DNA from: Pseudolabrys sp.
Lineage (GTDB): Bacteria > Pseudomonadota > Alphaproteobacteria > Rhizobiales > Xanthobacteraceae
Direction: 5' to 3'
Assembly (NCBI GenBank): GCA_025929185.1
Contig: JAICMO010000008.1
Coordinates: 1-41,312, forward strand
DNA length: 41,312 nt
The position numbers were made by a program, and so were the translations under genes. The notes under the pieces are model-generated. The model did not search any database and was not told the origin of the DNA. It saw only the letters and a program-made list of their open reading frames with translations. This document shows, in pieces, positions 335-38,684 of this stretch (the stretch's first letter is position 1; each line of letters starts with the position of its first letter).

Positions 335-1240
335 CTATGCGGCGGTAAAAAAGGAAAGCAATGCCGCCGCGGTGGCGCCCGGATTTTCTTCCGTCAGGAA
401 ATGCCCCGAGTCGATCGGCTCGCCGCGCACGTCACTCGCCCACTGCCGCCAGATTTTTAACGGACCGCCGGTCTCGTTCGGAATTCCCGCCGCTCCCCAA
501 AGCGCCAGCAGCGGGCATGCGATCGTTTTGCCGGCCGCGCGATCGGCTTCGTCGTTGACGAGATCGGCGCCGCGTCCGGCCCGGTAATCTTCGCAATGCG
601 CGTGGATGCGTACCGGATCGGCGAACGCGGCGCGGTAGTGATCCAGAGCGCGCGGATCGAAGGCCGATAGATTTTTGGCCTTTGTCCAGCTCGCCATCTT
701 CCACTCGAGGTATTCAACCGGCGCTTTCTCGATCAGCATTTCCGGCAGCGGATAAGGTTGCGCGAGAAAAGGCCAGTGCCAGACCTTCATCGCCATGTTG
801 CGATCCATGCCATGCCACATGTCATAGGTCGGCACGATATCGAGCGTCGCCATGCGCTCGACGCGTCCGGGATGATCGAGCGCGAGCCGGTACGCCACGC
901 GGCCGCCGCGATCGTGCCCGGCAAGCAGGAATCGCACGTGGCCAAGCTTCTCCATGACTTCGATCATGACATTGGCCATCGACCGCTTGTCGTACGGCGC
1001 GTGCGCGCTATCGGCATCCGGCGCGGCAGACCAGCCGTATCCGGGCAAGTCGGGAATGACGAGTGCGAAACGCGCGGCAAGCGCCGGGGCGACGCGATGC
1101 CACATGACGTTCGTCTGCGTATAGCCGTGCAGGAGCAGCAGGGGCGGGCCGTCTCCGTCGCTGCGCGCAAAGATTCTGCCGACCGAAGTATCGATCCAGC
1201 GCGAGGCAAAATCGGGAAACAGATCGGCGAGGTCGGTCAT
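335..1240 (-). CDS. Alpha/beta hydrolase (haloacetate dehalogenase-like)
   Basis: [35 protein letters not shown] (nucleophile D in GHDRGG), C-terminal GHFLTEENP; start trimmed to MTDLADLF. Confidence 0.88.
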
Positions 1241-13190: not shown

Positions 13191-13829
13191 CTATTTTCGA
13201 TAAGCGGCCAGGAAGGCACGGACGGCCATGCCGACGACATGGTCGACGCGCTCGGGTGTCGGCGGTGGCGCAAAATTGAACAGCATCGGCTTTAAAATGG
13301 TGGCGTGGCAGCTTTCAATGAATTGCGCCGCCGCAACCTCGGAATCTTCGATCGTCAGTATCCCGGCCTCGACCTGCGCGCGCAGATAGGCGGCAAGCTT
13401 GGCGATGCCAACCGCAGGACCGGTCTCGTAAACCTTTCGGCCGAGATCCGGCATGCGCTCGGCAACCGCGATTACAGTTCGAAACGAGGAGAGGCGACCC
13501 GAATCGGCAATCGCGCGCACGAAGGCTTTGCCGTGCCGCAGCAGCACGCTATCGACATCATGGTCCCCGAGGTCGAAGTCGAACACGCCTTCGGCCTGCA
13601 TCGCGCATTCCCCGCGCACGATCGCGGCGAACAGCTCATCCTTGTCCTTGAAATAGACGTACAGGGTGCCTTTGGACACGCCGGCGGCCTTCGCAATGTC
13701 GCCCATGCTGGCGGCATCAAAGCCGCGCGAAAGGAACACCGAGCGCGCGCCGTCGATGATTTGGCGGCGCTTGGCGCTGTCCTCGGCCTCTGTCGGGCCC
13801 GGTGGAACCAGTTCGGCTAATTCAGACAT
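13191..13829 (-). CDS. TetR/AcrR family transcriptional regulator
   Basis: RRQIIDGARSVFLSRGFDAASMGDIAKAAGVSKGTLYVYFKDKDELFAAIV HTH; divergent from efflux genes. Confidence 0.95.
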   Translation of the reverse strand: MSELAELVPPGPTEAEDSAKRRQIIDGARSVFLSRGFDAASMGDIAKAAGVSKGTLYVYFKDKDELFAAIVRGECAMQAEGVFDFDLGDHDVDSVLLRHGKAFVRAIADSGRLSSFRTVIAVAERMPDLGRKVYETGPAVGIAKLAAYLRAQVEAGILTIEDSEVAAAQFIESCHATILKPMLFNFAPPPTPERVDHVVGMAVRAFLAAYRK

Positions 13830-13896: not shown

Positions 13897-13989
13897 TGAC
13901 CGAACCGTTCGGTCAAAAAACGATTGACTCCGTCATAGGCGAATATATTTTGACCGAACCGTTTGGTCAATGACCGATCGGTTCGATTC
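13897..13989. promoter_or_regulatory. Probable TetR operator cluster: two near-identical 19-bp palindromes plus a degenerate third
   Basis: TGACCGAACCGTTCGGTCA (13897-13915), TGACCGAACCGTTTGGTCA (13951-13969), TGACCGATCGGTTCGAT from 13971; between divergent tetR and emrA-like genes. Confidence 0.85.
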
Positions 13990-14000
13990 GGAGTTACCCT

Positions 14001-15353
14001 ATGCAATTAGAAAGCGCTGCAAAAGAAGAAATTTCCTCGACCGGCACGCGGCTGGTTGGCGCACGAGGCGCTATGGCCGCTCAGCGGGTCAGGGCGATCC
14101 ATCTCGCCGCGGTCACAGAACGCCGCGACGACGAAGCGAATGGTCCTGCCGCGGAAGCAACACCGCAGTTCGCGCCAGCCGAGAATGAGCCCGCAGCGCG
14201 CCAGGCGAACCGGCCGGCGTCCGACGTCGTCCCCGCCGAAGCGAAGACCGCGCCCCGGCGCAGTCGGCGCAAACTGGCGCTGATCGGGGCGGGGGCTGTG
14301 ATCGCCGTCGCCGCCGGCGGCTGGTTCGGTTACGACTACGTGACCGTGGGCCGCTATCTGGTGACAACCAACGACGCCTATGTGCGCACGGATGCGACCA
14401 CGCTTGCCGCCAAGGTCGCCGGCTATGTCTCGGCGATCGGCGTTGCCGACAACACGTTCGTCCATGCCGGGCAGGTGATCGCGCGGATCGATGACGGCGA
14501 CTATCGGCTCGCCGTCGCCTCGGCGCGCGACAAGGTGCAGACGCAACAGGCGGCCGTCGATCGCATCGGCAAGCAAATTCCGGCGCAGCAGGCTGCGGTC
14601 GAGCAGGCGCGGGCGCAACTCGCCTCCGCCCAAGCCTCCGCAACGCGTTGGCAATCGGAGTTCGAGCGCCAGCAGGCGCTCGCCGGAAAGGAATTTGCCA
14701 GCCAGCAGACACTCGAGCAGACGCGGGCGAGCCGCGACCAGGCGCTTGCTGGCGTAAAGAGCGCCGAAGCTGCCATCGACGCCGCCGCTGCCAACGTCGA
14801 CGTTCTCAAGGCGCAGCAGCAGGAGGCGTTGCAGCAGTTACAGGAGCTCAAGACCGCGCTTGCGAAGGCCGAGCGCGACCTGTCCTTTACGTTGATCCGC
14901 GCGCCGATCGACGGGGTGCTCGGCAACCGTGCCATGCAGGTCGGCGACTACGTGCAGCCGGGCACGCGGCTCGCCAGCCTCGTTCCGCTCGACGAAGTCT
15001 ACATCGATGCCAATTTCAAGGAGACGCAACTCGCGCGCGTGCGCGCCGGTCAGCCGGTCAACGTGAGTGTCGATGCATTGCCGGGCAAGGAGATCGAGGG
15101 TGAAGTCGCCAGCATCTCGCCAGCCTCCGGCGCGGTATTTTCGCTGCTGCCGCCCGACAACGCGACCGGCAACTTCACCAAGATCGTGCAGCGTCTGCCG
15201 GTGCGCATCCAGTTGCCGCCGGACGTGACCGTTCGCCGCGTGCTGCGGCCGGGCATGTCGGTCGTGGTCAGCGTGAATACCAAGCCGCAGGCGTCGGTTG
15301 CAGATCGCGACTCGCGGCTCGCGCAAGACACCAATCGCCCATTCCGCTGGTGA
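14001..15353 (+). CDS. HlyD/EmrA-family membrane fusion protein
   Basis: GGWFGYDYVTVGRYLVTTNDAYVRTDATTLAAKVAGYVSAIGVADNTFVHAGQVIARIDDGDY; coiled-coil; VGDYVQPGTRLASLVPLDEVYIDANFKETQL. Confidence 0.95.
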   Translation: MQLESAAKEEISSTGTRLVGARGAMAAQRVRAIHLAAVTERRDDEANGPAAEATPQFAPAENEPAARQANRPASDVVPAEAKTAPRRSRRKLALIGAGAVIAVAAGGWFGYDYVTVGRYLVTTNDAYVRTDATTLAAKVAGYVSAIGVADNTFVHAGQVIARIDDGDYRLAVASARDKVQTQQAAVDRIGKQIPAQQAAVEQARAQLASAQASATRWQSEFERQQALAGKEFASQQTLEQTRASRDQALAGVKSAEAAIDAAAANVDVLKAQQQEALQQLQELKTALAKAERDLSFTLIRAPIDGVLGNRAMQVGDYVQPGTRLASLVPLDEVYIDANFKETQLARVRAGQPVNVSVDALPGKEIEGEVASISPASGAVFSLLPPDNATGNFTKIVQRLPVRIQLPPDVTVRRVLRPGMSVVVSVNTKPQASVADRDSRLAQDTNRPFRW

Positions 15354-18029: not shown

Positions 18030-21000
18030 CTAGGTCCGCCCATATCCTCCCGCCGTCGGCGTCTGGATGATGACGGCTTCGCCGGCGTCGATGGTGGTCT
18101 CGTCGCAGCCTTGCAGGCGCTCCATGCGGCCGTCCTTGCGGCGCACCCAGTTTTCGCCGACCTGACCGGGCTCGCCCCCGGCAAGGCCGAACGGCGGCAC
18201 GCGGCGATGGCCGGACAAAATCGTGCATTCCATCTTTTCGAGAAAGCGAATGGTGCGGCGGATGCCGTCGCCCGCGTGCCACTTGCCCTTGCCGCCGGAG
18301 CCTTTGCGGATGTGGAAGTCTTCCAGCACCGCTGGATAACGAAACTCCAGCACCTCGGGATCGGTGAGCCGCGTGTTGGTCATGTGCGTATGCACCGCAT
18401 CGGTCCCGTCGAAGCCGGGGCCGGCCGGCGAGCCCGAGCAGATCGTTTCGTAATACTGGTACTTGGCGTTGCCGAAGTTGAGATTGTTCATGGTGCCTTG
18501 CGCGGCGGCCATGGCGCCGAGCGCGCCGAACAGGCAATTCGTCACCGCCTGCGAGGTCTCCACGTTTCCGGCGACCACGGCGGCCGGATATTCCGGCGAC
18601 AGCAAGGATTTCTTCGGCAGGATGATCCTTATCGGCCGCAGGCAGCCGGCGTTCATCGGAATGTCGTCGTCGACCATCACGCGGAAGACGTAAAGCACGG
18701 CGGCGCGCGCGACCGGCTCGGGCGCGTTGAAATTGGTCGGCTGCTGCGGCGAGGTGCCGGTGAAGTCGAGCGTCGCTTCGCGCCTCTTCTTGTCGACGGT
18801 GATCTTCACCTTGATCACCGTGCCCTGATCCATCTCGTAGGAAAACTCGCTGTCGTGCAGGCGGTCGATGACGCGCCGCACGCTTTCGGCGGCGTTGTCC
18901 TGCACGTGCTGCATGTACGCCTCAACCACGGGCAGCGTGAATTGCTTGACCATCTTGCGCAGCTCCTGCACGCCCTTCTCGTTGGCGGCGATCTGCGCCT
19001 TGATGTCGTTGATGTTCTGCACCGGATTGCGCGCCGGGTAGCGCGCGCCGGTCAACGCGGCCATCAGCTCTTTTTCGCGAAAGCGCCCGCGGTCGACGAG
19101 CTTGAAGTTGTCGAACAGCACGCCTTCCTGCTCGATGGTCGTCGCATTGGGCGACATCGAGCCGGGCGAAATGCCGCCGACGTCGGCGTGATGGCCGCGC
19201 GAGGCGACCCAGAAAAGGATTCGCGGGCCTTTCTCCGTCATCCTGAGGTGCTCGCGCGCAGCGCGAGCCTCGAAGGATGCACGGCCCCGGCCGTCGCCCT
19301 TCGAGGCTCGCTTCGCTCGCTCCTCAGGGTGACGGGACTGGCTTTCGAACACCGGCGTGCAGATGGTGATGTCCGGCAGGTGCGTGCCGCCGTTGTACGG
19401 CGCATTGATGCAGTAGACGTCGCCGGCTGAGATCTTGCCCTTGTTGTCGCGAATGACGGTCTCGACCGAACGATCCATCGAGCCGAGATGCACCGGCACG
19501 TGCGGCGCGTTGGCGACCAGCGTGCCGTCGGCGGAAAACACCGCGCAGGAGAAATCGAGCCGCTCCTTGATGTTCACCGAGTAGGCCGTGTTCTGCAGCG
19601 ACACGCCCATCTGCTCGGCCACCGACATGAACAGGTTGTTGAACACCTCGAGCATCACCGGATCGGCCTTTGTGCCGATGGCGTGGCGCCGCTTGGCGGC
19701 CACCGCGCGCGTGAGCACGAGATGATTTTTCGCGGTGATCTCTGCCTGCCAGCCGGGTTCGACCACGACTGTCTGGTGCGGCTCGATGATGATGGCCGCG
19801 CCTTTGACACGCGTGCCGGGCTTGAGCTGCGCGCGGGTATAGACGTTAGCCTTGTGCCATGTGCCGTCGGAAAAGAATTCGGTGCGGCGCGCGGGCGCGG
19901 GCAGGGCGCTGCGGCTCTTGCGCAGCGTCTTCTCGCGAAATTTCGCGCCGCCGCCCACGGCCTCGACCGAGACCGCTTCGACCACCATCTGCTTCGAGCG
20001 GTCGATGAAGCCGAAGCGCGCCTTGTGCGCTTTTTCGAAGGCGTGCTGGATTTTGTTCAGCACTGGACCTCCCCCTGAAAGGGGGAGGTCGGCGCGCGAA
20101 GCGCGCCGGGTGGGGGTCGATGGCATTTGCTTATGACCCCAACCCGGACCGCCTTCGGCGGTCTGACCCTCCCCTTTCAGGGGAGGGATGAAGGTGGGGA
20201 CGACCAGCGGCGTGTCTGTCCCCGCGTAGCGGATGTGCGCGCGCACGATCACTTTGATCTTGGCAGCGGGTACGCCCTGGCCAGCGACTTCATCTTTCGC
20301 CTGTTTACCCATCCGCGCAGCCACGCGTGCGATCACGGCCAGCGCCTTGTCGCCGAACGGCAGCTCGATCGCCTGCTGCCGCGTCGCGCGAATGTCGGCC
20401 AAGCCCATGCCGTAAGCCGAGAGCAGCGACGAGAACGGATGGATCAGCACCTTTGTCATGCCGAGCGCATCGGCGACCAGGCAGGCGTGCTGGCCGCCGG
20501 CGCCGCCGAAGCAATTGAGCGCATAGCGCGTCACGTCGTAGCCGCGCTGCACGGAAATCTTCTTGATCGCGTTCGCCATGTTCTCGACCGCGATCTTGAT
20601 GAAGCCGTCGGCAATTTCTTCCGGCGTGCGGCCGCCGCCGACCTCGCGCGCCAGGTCGGCGAACGCTTTCCGCACTGCCCCGGCATCGAGCGGCAGGTTG
20701 CGCTCGGCGCCGAAAATCTTCGGGAAGAATTCCGGCATCAGCTTGCCGGTCTTGAGGTTGGCGTCGTTCACCGCGAGCGGGCCGCCGCGGCTATAACATT
20801 TCGGCCCCGGTTTGGCGCCTGCCGAAGCCGGGCCGACGCGAAAGCGCGCGCCGTCGAAATGCAGGATCGAGCCGCCGCCGGCCGCGACCGTATGGATGAG
20901 CATCATCGGCGCGCGCATGCGCACGCCGGCGACTTCCGTCTCGTAGGCGCGCTCGTACTCGCCGTCGAAATGCGAGATGTCGGTCGAGGTGCCGCCCATG

Positions 21001-22070
21001 TCGAAGCCGATCAGGCGATCGAAGCCGGCTTCGCGCCCCGTCTGCGCCATGCCGACCACGCCGCCGGCGGGGCCGGACAAGATGGCGTCCTTGCCCTGGA
21101 AAAGCTCGGCCGCAGTCAGCCCGCCGGACGACATCATGAACATCAGGCGGATTGAATCTGTTGCGTCACCGCTTGCGCTGGCGGAATCCTTGCCCGCTTG
21201 CTCATTCTTTTCCCTCCCCCGCTTGCGGGGGTGGGTTAGGGAGGGGGTAAAAGCCTGCTCGGCAATTGAAGAAGAGCCTCCACCCGCCGCGCCTTCGCCC
21301 TTCGGGCTTCGGCGGGCGACCTCCCCCGCAAGCGGGGGAGGTGAAGAAAGCGCGAGGGATGTCGCGCGCATTTCGCTCGCCACCCGCGCCACGTAGCGCC
21401 GCAGGATCGGCGAGAGATAGGCATCGACCACCGTGGTGTCGCCGCGCGAGACGATCTTGATCAGCGGCGAAACCTCGTGGCTCACGGAAATCTGCGCGAA
21501 GCCGACTTCGCGCGCGAGCGCGGCGACGCGCTTCTCATGCTCGGCGTGGTGATAGGCGTGCATGAAGACGATAGCGACAGCTTCGATTCCATCGGCCTTC
21601 GCCGTTTCGAGCTCGCGCCGCACGCTGGCGAGATCGACCTCGCGCTCGACCGTGCCGTCGGCAAGCACGCGCTCGTCGACCTCGACCACGCGTTCGTAGA
21701 GCATGTCCGGTTTGACGATCTGCCGCGCAAAAATCTTCGGCCGCGCCTGGTAGCCGATCTTGAGCGCATCGCGGAAGCCTTTGGTGATCAGCAGCAGCGT
21801 CCGCTCGCCTTTGCGCTCGAGCAGCGCATTGGTAGCGACCGTCGTGCCCATCTTCACCGCGCCGATGCGGCCCGGTGGAATTGCCTCACCCGATTTTAAG
21901 CCGAGCAGGTCGCGGATGCCTTGCACCGCGGCATCGCCATAGGCTTCGGGATTCTCGGACAGCAGCTTGTGCGCAATGAGCGTGCCGTCGGGGCGGCGGC
22001 CGACAATGTCGGTGAACGTGCCGCCACGGTCGATCCAGAAATCCCAGCGGTGCAATGGTTTTGCGATCAT
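18030..22070 (-). CDS. Hydantoinase A/B (5-oxoprolinase-type) fusion protein carrying three in-frame repeat-derived insertions
   Basis: HyuA part: [64 protein letters not shown]; HyuB part: [62 protein letters not shown]; start trimmed to [12 protein letters not shown]. Confidence 0.93.
19237..19333. repeat. Dispersed long imperfect palindrome (GTCATCCTGAGG...CCTCAGGGTGAC type) in frame inside the hydantoinase/oxoprolinase ORF
   Basis: GTCATCCTGAGGTGCTCGCGCGCAGCGCGAGCCTCGAAGG ... CCTTCGAGGCTCGCTTCGCTCGCTCCTCAGGGTGAC; arms pair over most of the element; encodes [35 protein letters not shown]. Confidence 0.88.
20067..20187. repeat. Bipartite palindromic element, in frame inside the hydantoinase/oxoprolinase ORF
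   Basis: ACCTCCCCCTGAAAGGGGGAGGT hairpin ... CGGGTGGGGGTC - spacer - GACCCCAACCCG ... CCCTCCCCTTTCAGGGGAGGG hairpin. Confidence 0.9.
21211..21343. repeat. Bipartite palindromic element, in frame inside the hydantoinase/oxoprolinase ORF
   Basis: TCCCTCCCCCGCTTGCGGGGGTGGGTTAGGG ... CGCCGCGCCTTCGCCCTTCGGGCTTCGGCGGGCGACCTCCCCCGCAAGCGGGGGAGGT; encodes [22 protein letters not shown] ... [11 protein letters not shown] on the minus strand. Confidence 0.9.
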
Positions 22071-22184
22071 GAGAATGAGAACTAGCAACGATATGGGAGG
22101 CGCACTATGTCCCGCCTGTCGCCGATAAAACAAGCCTGTTAGGTTTGCCGCCGGCGCAATGCCGCAATCGGCAAGGACTATTCC

Positions 22185-26537: not shown

Positions 26538-26970
26538 CGTATCAGCCGGCCTGTAAGCCGGGTTCTGTATGGCACGTGGCGAAAGCCACGCACGCGACGG
26601 CCATTCCTCTCGCACGCCGGTTGCCCGGCGCATCAAGCAACCTACCCGAACGGCCGATCCGGACTGATCCCGGGATTGCTCCCGCGCCGTTCCTATTCGG
26701 TCTTGCTCCCGGTGGGGTTTGCCGTGCCGCTTCCGTTGCCGGAAACGCGGTGCGCTCTTACCGCACCTTTTCACCCTTGCCGCGGGCGATACGCAACGCT
26801 GCCCGAGGCGGTTCGTTCTCTGTGGCACTTTCCCTGAGGTTTATCCCCGCGAAAGCAGGGACCCACCCCGCCGGACGTTATCCGGCACCGCTCGTCCATG
26901 GAGCCCGGACTTTCCTCCCCGGCCGCCTTTCGGCAATGGCGCGGAGCGGCCGTCCGGCCGACTGACGCGC
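26538..26970 (-). ncRNA. rnpB: RNase P RNA (bacterial type A)
   Basis: Reverse strand contains GAGGAAAGTCCGGGCTCCA, AGGGAAAGTGCCACAGAGAACGAACCGCC, AAGGGTGAAAAGGTGCGGTAAGAGCGCACCGCG, GTAGGTTGCTTGA, ACAGAACCCGGCTTACAG; P1 pairing CGCGTCAGTCGGCC / GGCCGGCTGATACG sets the ends. Confidence 0.95.
26845..26874 (-). repeat. Repeat-like hairpin inside the rnpB P9 region
   Basis: rnpB-sense TGGGTCCCTGCTTTCGCGGGGATAAA, similar to the CCCCGCTTTCGCGGG half of the repeat at 22992-23062. Confidence 0.6.
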
Positions 26971-36774: not shown

Positions 36775-36804
36775 GAATGAATGAGCGGCAGCAGGCTCTG
36801 CGCG

Positions 36805-36924
36805 CTCCCTCCCCCCTTGCGGGGGAGGGTTGGGGTGGGGGGTCGCGCGTGGGCCGTCACGCATCGACATCGACCCCCCTCCCGCCGAGCTTCGCTCGGC
36901 TACCTCCCCCACAAGGGGGGAGGT
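36805..36924. repeat. Bipartite palindromic element between mraY and murD
   Basis: CTCCCTCCCCCCTTGCGGGGGAGGG ... GGGTGGGGGGTC-type arm - spacer - GACCCCCCTCCC ... ACCTCCCCCACAAGGGGGGAGGT. Confidence 0.9.
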
Positions 36925-38332: not shown

Positions 38333-38377
38333 ACCGCGCGTCATCGCCCGCGGAAGCGGGCGAGCGAGGCACGGCTT

Positions 38378-38428
38378 CCCTCTCCCGCTTGCGGGAGAGG
38401 GTGGCCGCGTAGCGGCCGGGTGAGGGTG
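38378..38428. repeat. Left half-element flanking the DUF559 fragment
   Basis: CCCTCTCCCGCTTGCGGGAGAGGGTGGCCGCGTAGCGGCCGGGTGAGGGTG. Confidence 0.88.
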
Positions 38429-38465: not shown

Positions 38466-38684
38466 GTGCTGCGCCGCACTGCCACCGACGCCGAGCGGGT
38501 CATGTGGTTTCTGCTTCGCCACCGTCGGCTCGACGGCGTCAAATTTCGCCGCCAAGTTCCAATTGGCCCTTATGTCGTGGATTTTGCTTCGATCCAGCAT
38601 AGGCTCATCGTCGAGTTGGATGGAAGCCAGCATGCTGAGAGTGCCCTCACCCCGACTCTCCCCCGCAAGCGGGAGAGGGAGTGA
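38466..38684 (+). pseudogene. DUF559 (Vsr/endonuclease-like) fragment, truncated at the C-terminus
   Basis: LRRTATDAERVMWFLLRHRRLDGVKFRRQVPIGPYVVDFASIQHRLIVELDGSQHAES then runs into repeat sequence (ALTPTLPRKRERE); catalytic-domain remainder absent. Confidence 0.82.
38644..38679. repeat. Right half-element flanking the DUF559 fragment, inverted relative to the left
   Basis: CCCTCACCCCGACTCTCCCCCGCAAGCGGGAGAGGG; reverse complement resembles 38378-38428. Confidence 0.85.

Follow-up and report, generated by a model that had tools for sequence, protein, structure and literature searches.

Here, we report that a fused HyuA-HyuB gene of a Pseudolabrys-like bacterium carries three palindromic repeats that are read in frame as protein, and that many related lineages have inserts at the same three sites. 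We propose that REP-like elements insert often and that selection keeps only the in-frame, open copies which lie in tolerant loops, a reading that we consider very probable. The window, by which we mean the whole stretch of 41,312 nucleotides that was analysed, comes from contig C276 of a MAG of 3.6 Mb in 281 contigs (about 90% complete; genome label G000), which among named organisms is closest to Pseudolabrys and other Xanthobacteraceae.

The reading frame at 18030..22133 (-) has no internal stop, and the ATG at 22070 gives a product of 1346 codons (Table 1). Hydant_A_N, Hydantoinase_A, Hydant_A_C and Hydantoinase_B all lie in this one chain (Pfam), and the nearest solved structure is that of a fused N-methylhydantoinase (7hk5/9h03), with TM-scores for 9h03_A, normalised by query, of 0.73 and 0.63. 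With HyuA and HyuB domains of known fold in a single chain, the product is a member of the hydantoinase/oxoprolinase superfamily; its substrate may be hydantoin, oxoproline or another compound. The original prediction was that three palindromic repeats sit in frame within one open hydantoinase/oxoprolinase ORF and interrupt recognisable HyuA/HyuB sequence. Its coordinates are confirmed, the frame is open throughout, and the residues that it bracketed as inserted are extra in an alignment to 40 orthologues, where most congeners run on without a gap after RRYVxxV..D (site A), from DTALVV to AGxLxAM (site B) and at TPVFDDKKK (site C).

The 30 congeneric orthologues are mostly 1207-1220 aa long with all three sites empty, and among them the insertion at site B is found in the window only. 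The bracketed residues are thus extra relative to most congeners, but the insertion at site A exceeds its palindrome, and those at sites A and C are not specific to the window because relatives hold other repeats there (site A is filled in G002, G014, G020, G022, G023, G026 and G033, and site C in G002 and, with a short insert, in G023).

Table 1. Coordinates of the fused gene, its three insertions and the in-frame inserts of other genes in the same genome.
Feature	Position	Strand	Description
Fused HyuA-HyuB gene	18030..22070	(-)	1346 codons plus stop; Pfam domains, solved homologues
Site A insertion	21162..21359	(-)	aa 259-324 of the 1367-codon reading; about 66 aa; helix-to-strand
Site A palindromic element	about 21211-21343	(-)	shorter than the whole site A insertion
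Site B insertion	about 20064-20196	(-)	aa about 647-690; hairpin-rich, untagged element
Site C element	19236..19334	(-)	99 nt, CGTCAC..GATGACG; CGTC-tagged inverted repeat; 33 residues in frame
Site C whole insertion	about 19224-19340	(-)	encloses the 99-nt element
glyS inserts	L124 (G000 C261), aa 309-342 and about 554-583		two apparently different repeat families
prmA insert	L103 (G000 C256), aa 191-238		
dnaE2 (error-prone DNA polymerase) inserts	L131, L132, L136, L138 (G000 C222)		at least three in frame

The inserts have the character of structured repeats. In the window, the insert DNA has folding z-scores of -5.8 at site A, -7.8 at B and -6.0 at C; the 42 inserts of the orthologue set have a median of -4.6, and 30 of them fall below -3, a value passed by 3 of 42 random control stretches from the same genes. 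Most of these 42 inserts match one another between sites and genomes (blastn), and a minority are unlike these repeats (e.g. G049, G051, L201, L216, L210 site C). G051 (L091) and G049 (L090), which belong to different families of the order, carry long extensions at sites A and C that are not palindromic repeats of this kind, the one at site C of G051 being a tandem AEGATGKQ-type repeat. Hence these loops accept other inserts too.

Recurrence at these sites extends well beyond the genus. In a wider set of 80 loci from Hyphomicrobiales, inserts occupy sites A, B and C in many Xanthobacteraceae, in related MAGs and in one isolate (L199, a divergent copy), and Brucella, Roseibium, Alsobacter and most Pseudolabrys have none there. 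Counting inserts of at least 20 aa against a 1204-column core, we found 45 in 92 non-redundant orthologues: 23 at site A, 9 at B, 10 at C and 3 elsewhere, so that 42 of the 45 lie in three loops. When placement was random (2000 draws), the best three windows held at most 13 of the 45. Parsimony on a 92-taxon FastTree tree gives 22 changes for 23 carriers at site A, 9 for 9 at B and 9 for 10 at C; on a 37-taxon IQ-TREE tree the corresponding values are 13 for 18, 5 for 6 and 6 for 7, where the changes are gains and losses together and may include losses or exchange. Several repeat families contribute inserts, and their carriers are spread across the tree. In many lineages these three loops tolerate inserts, and this strong recurrence within one enzyme seems to be the new part, in-frame REPs being already known.

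Modelling had been suggested as a way of seeing whether the inserts map to surface loops, and the models do place them in predicted loops. AlphaFold was run on each half separately (mean pLDDT values of 72.5 and 70.4), and all three are mostly predicted as low-confidence coil between secondary-structure elements: insert A (pLDDT about 30) follows helix 212-235 and precedes strand 308-312, insert B runs from strand 622-625 to helix 669-686, and insert C (at 122-156 of its half model, pLDDT <50) links strand 110-118 to strand 161-170. The solved 7hk5 chain has no counterpart of the three inserts, with query residues 233-309, 619-673 and 909-955 matching about 10, 18 and 8 residues, respectively.

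Three inserts in one gene could also point to a pseudogene, decaying or not expressed, that gathers inserts freely, and dN/dS near 1 had been named as the sign of this. Instead, core codons of the window compared with congeners give dN/dS of 0.09-0.23, and pN/pS is 0.17-0.30 for the window against congeners, near the 0.14-0.28 of pairs of other congeners. The window departs at 4 of 315 otherwise invariant positions, as against 0-1 in the compared congeners, a difference that would suit decay; all four departures are mild (V/I, T/N, I/V, V/A). The low dN/dS together with so few and such conservative departures therefore disfavours decay, as do the 1346 intact codons, the confinement of the inserts to loops and the like pattern in glyS and prmA, and we hold a pseudogene to be very improbable. 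As judged from codon comparisons, these values show ordinary purifying selection on a gene that is permissive at its loops and not decaying, with a slight excess of change possible. The description of the gene as a relaxed target is accordingly not supported, dN/dS rejecting relaxed selection as it does a pseudogene.

The same genome was further predicted to harbour a protein-coding palindromic process analogous to that of Rickettsia, and this is upheld by in-frame inserts within or between conserved domains of prmA, glyS, dnaE2, pdhC, MmgE/PrpD and methylmalonyl-CoA mutase, as well as in an FAD-oxidase/Fe-S protein gene and an indolepyruvate oxidoreductase gene. One of the two glyS inserts encodes a VIAGLDPAIH..MDARVKPGHDG peptide. 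The insert at aa 309 of glyS is common to G000 and G005 and absent from the other 28 genomes compared; long stretches that do not look like repeats follow aa 553 in many relatives and were left out of the counts. As a rule, the beta subunit of glycyl-tRNA synthetase is essential, and yet it holds an insert, so a host gene need not be dispensable. In prmA, the insert site is reused in five congeners (G035, G023, G021, G063 and G061) by related repeats in different registers. The view of the HyuA-HyuB gene as unusually permissive thus holds for its three loops across many lineages, but dnaE2 of the same genome also has at least three inserts.

The elements in the gene have many relatives in the genome: at least about 41 places for the site C element (family 1) and at least dozens for those at sites A and B. 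Copies of the site C family are 92-113 nt long and carry CCGTCAYCCTGAGG and CCTCAGGRTGACGG at opposite ends; their consensus folds as a palindrome of nearly full length. The consensus CCGTCAYCC..GGRTGACGG is present at both ends in nearly all of 24 aligned copies, and every full copy consists of two inverted units, that is, a head-to-head dimer, the units folding as hairpins with structured loops that are longer than the published CGTC REP stem. Most copy lengths are not a multiple of three, the intragenic copy being 99 nt, and in neither orientation is the frame from base 3 ever open; survival within a gene hence needs a suitable copy. The elements at sites A and B, which are G+C-rich, hairpin-rich and untagged, belong to a second abundant group. 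Neither a GTAG nor a terminal CGTC tag could be read in 20064-20196 or 21211-21343, and for this reason we keep these elements out of the CGTC-tagged REP family.

The elements have no Rfam match in the window, where the sole Rfam hit is a class A RNase P RNA (26538-26965, (-)). More copies of the CCCTCCCC..GGGGAGGG repeat group lie at 36804-36841, 38376-38408 and 38644-38680. Separately, two near-identical TGACCGAACCGTTCGGTCA palindromes (13897-13924 and 13951-13978), 54 bp apart and resembling an operator pair, have a leftward ORF (13191-13829) on one side and a rightward one (14001-15353) on the other. The Y1/RAYT transposase (PF01797) was not found in the MAG (about 90% complete) and is matched in just 5 of 44 genus genomes, and on these grounds RAYT is an unlikely mobiliser of the elements.

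Some inserts are alike in both family and position. An HPEE-family element starts exactly four codons past the F of TPVF at site C in the window, L207 and L200; the element of the window is identical to that of L207 at 94 of 99 positions (95%) and to that of L200 at 92 of 105 (88%), as compared with 76-78% gene-wide DNA identity; elsewhere in the window genome, the most similar copy among the matches listed has 87% identity. A clade of the window, L207 and L200 is rejected (p-AU 2e-6), and with it the idea that one HPEE insertion at site C was passed down through a clade of carriers, although the element may have been present ancestrally and lost many times. The site A inserts of G022, G033 and L207 likewise share family and register in carriers whose clade is rejected (p-AU 5e-5). 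The similarity at site C does not look like purely random insertion, and these coincidences speak for locus-directed acquisition, whereby loops are exchanged by recombination or elements are targeted, and recurrence would reflect delivery too. At site C, the same CGTC subtype would then have entered an identical codon offset in at least three non-clade lineages, through a site-aware mechanism or element-sized gene conversion. Against this, gene-wide identity has no local peak and no raised flank identity was found around the same-site inserts, which speaks against local recombination there; copies 92-94% identical to the site C element of the window lie at other places in congeners, so that a common active subtype could explain part of the likeness; and many different inserts use the same loops. 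We judge directed acquisition to be unlikely, both in general and in the form just given for site C. Were it true, protein loops would be interchangeable cassettes.

That inserts persist and recur at fixed loops could also suggest that they are kept because they are useful, as domesticated loops or in mRNA-hairpin regulation. However, their peptides vary in sequence, frame and length between lineages, most close relatives are without them, and 3 of the 5 differences between the elements of the window and L207 alter the amino acid (aligned codons); a useful role appears improbable. As the source is a MAG of 281 contigs, an assembly artefact at repeats in a metagenome bin must be considered as well, but the like site pattern in many independent assemblies, and inserts that are short and in frame with both flanks contiguous and homologous, make this scarcely conceivable.

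In light of this, how might selective retention of frequent insertions have produced the present gene? We infer that several families of REP/BIME-like palindromes of about 90-140 bp spread in Xanthobacteraceae as mobile elements, either non-autonomous or passively copied. Most copies landing in genes would be lost, and the survivors would be those that have no stop in the frame being read, lengthen the gene by whole codons and occupy a surface loop or linker. There, 20-70 added residues would leave the fold unbroken, so that the inserts would be neutral and the product probably intact and functional. The tolerant loops would be the helix-to-strand connection after RRYV, the strand-to-helix connection after DTALVV and, after TPVF, the beta-hairpin. 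Because those three loops pass the test of tolerance, separate lineages would have filled them repeatedly with different elements, and the window genome has all three filled.

Most known palindromes of this kind, translated as part of a protein, are isolated examples. Here one enzyme has filled and empty sites in many parallel cases; how well insertions are tolerated, which frame is chosen and whether they are targeted therefore become measurable from natural data. The pattern looks like selfish DNA that is tolerated solely where the protein can bear it. It also carries a warning for annotation: in proteins of Hyphomicrobiales, peptides of the SPPLAGEV, RHPEERA and RPHPEEPERSEG types represent translated repeats.

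A literature search for Pseudolabrys with palindromic repeats found nothing, and the closest parallels come from other systems. According to PMC2229807, Rickettsia palindromic elements (RPE; Ogata 2000, 2002) are in-frame repeats in conserved protein genes and, like the present elements, are palindromes of about 100-150 bp tolerated by the host protein. The likeness to RPE is one of description, and the present elements differ in that the host lineage is G+C-rich and not obligate intracellular, in that several families occur at once, and in that identical loops of one gene are filled in many genera. Wolbachia WPE, enterobacterial RU/ERIC and Coxiella MITEs are also described, in PMC2229807 and PMC5896051, as small repeats that can be fused to ORFs, again a likeness by description, and in other hosts. 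The REPIN/RAYT system (GTAG REPs of Pseudomonas and E. coli) shares short palindromes that are often in inverted pairs, whereas no RAYT was found in the present genome and its elements are without a GTAG tag.

The nearest match for site C is with CGTC-tagged REPs, which include the Bradyrhizobium CGTC families and RPE-4/RPE-6 and in general are without an associated transposase (PMC3733652). CGTC and GTAG REPs lie inside ORFs of many species, with dnaE2, truB and tRNA synthetases among the listed targets and recB as a same-site case (PMC3733652). The published CGTC unit has an 8-9 bp stem, a 4-5 nt loop and a short tail, mostly CCA, with other loop sizes noted in Bradyrhizobium CGTC-1 (PMC3733652). 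In comparison, the site C family has longer stems and loops and co-occurs with untagged elements in its genome. It agrees with the CGTC-tagged REPs in its CGTC/GACG termini, its head-to-head dimer and the absence of a transposase, and like them is abundant and sometimes lies in ORFs.
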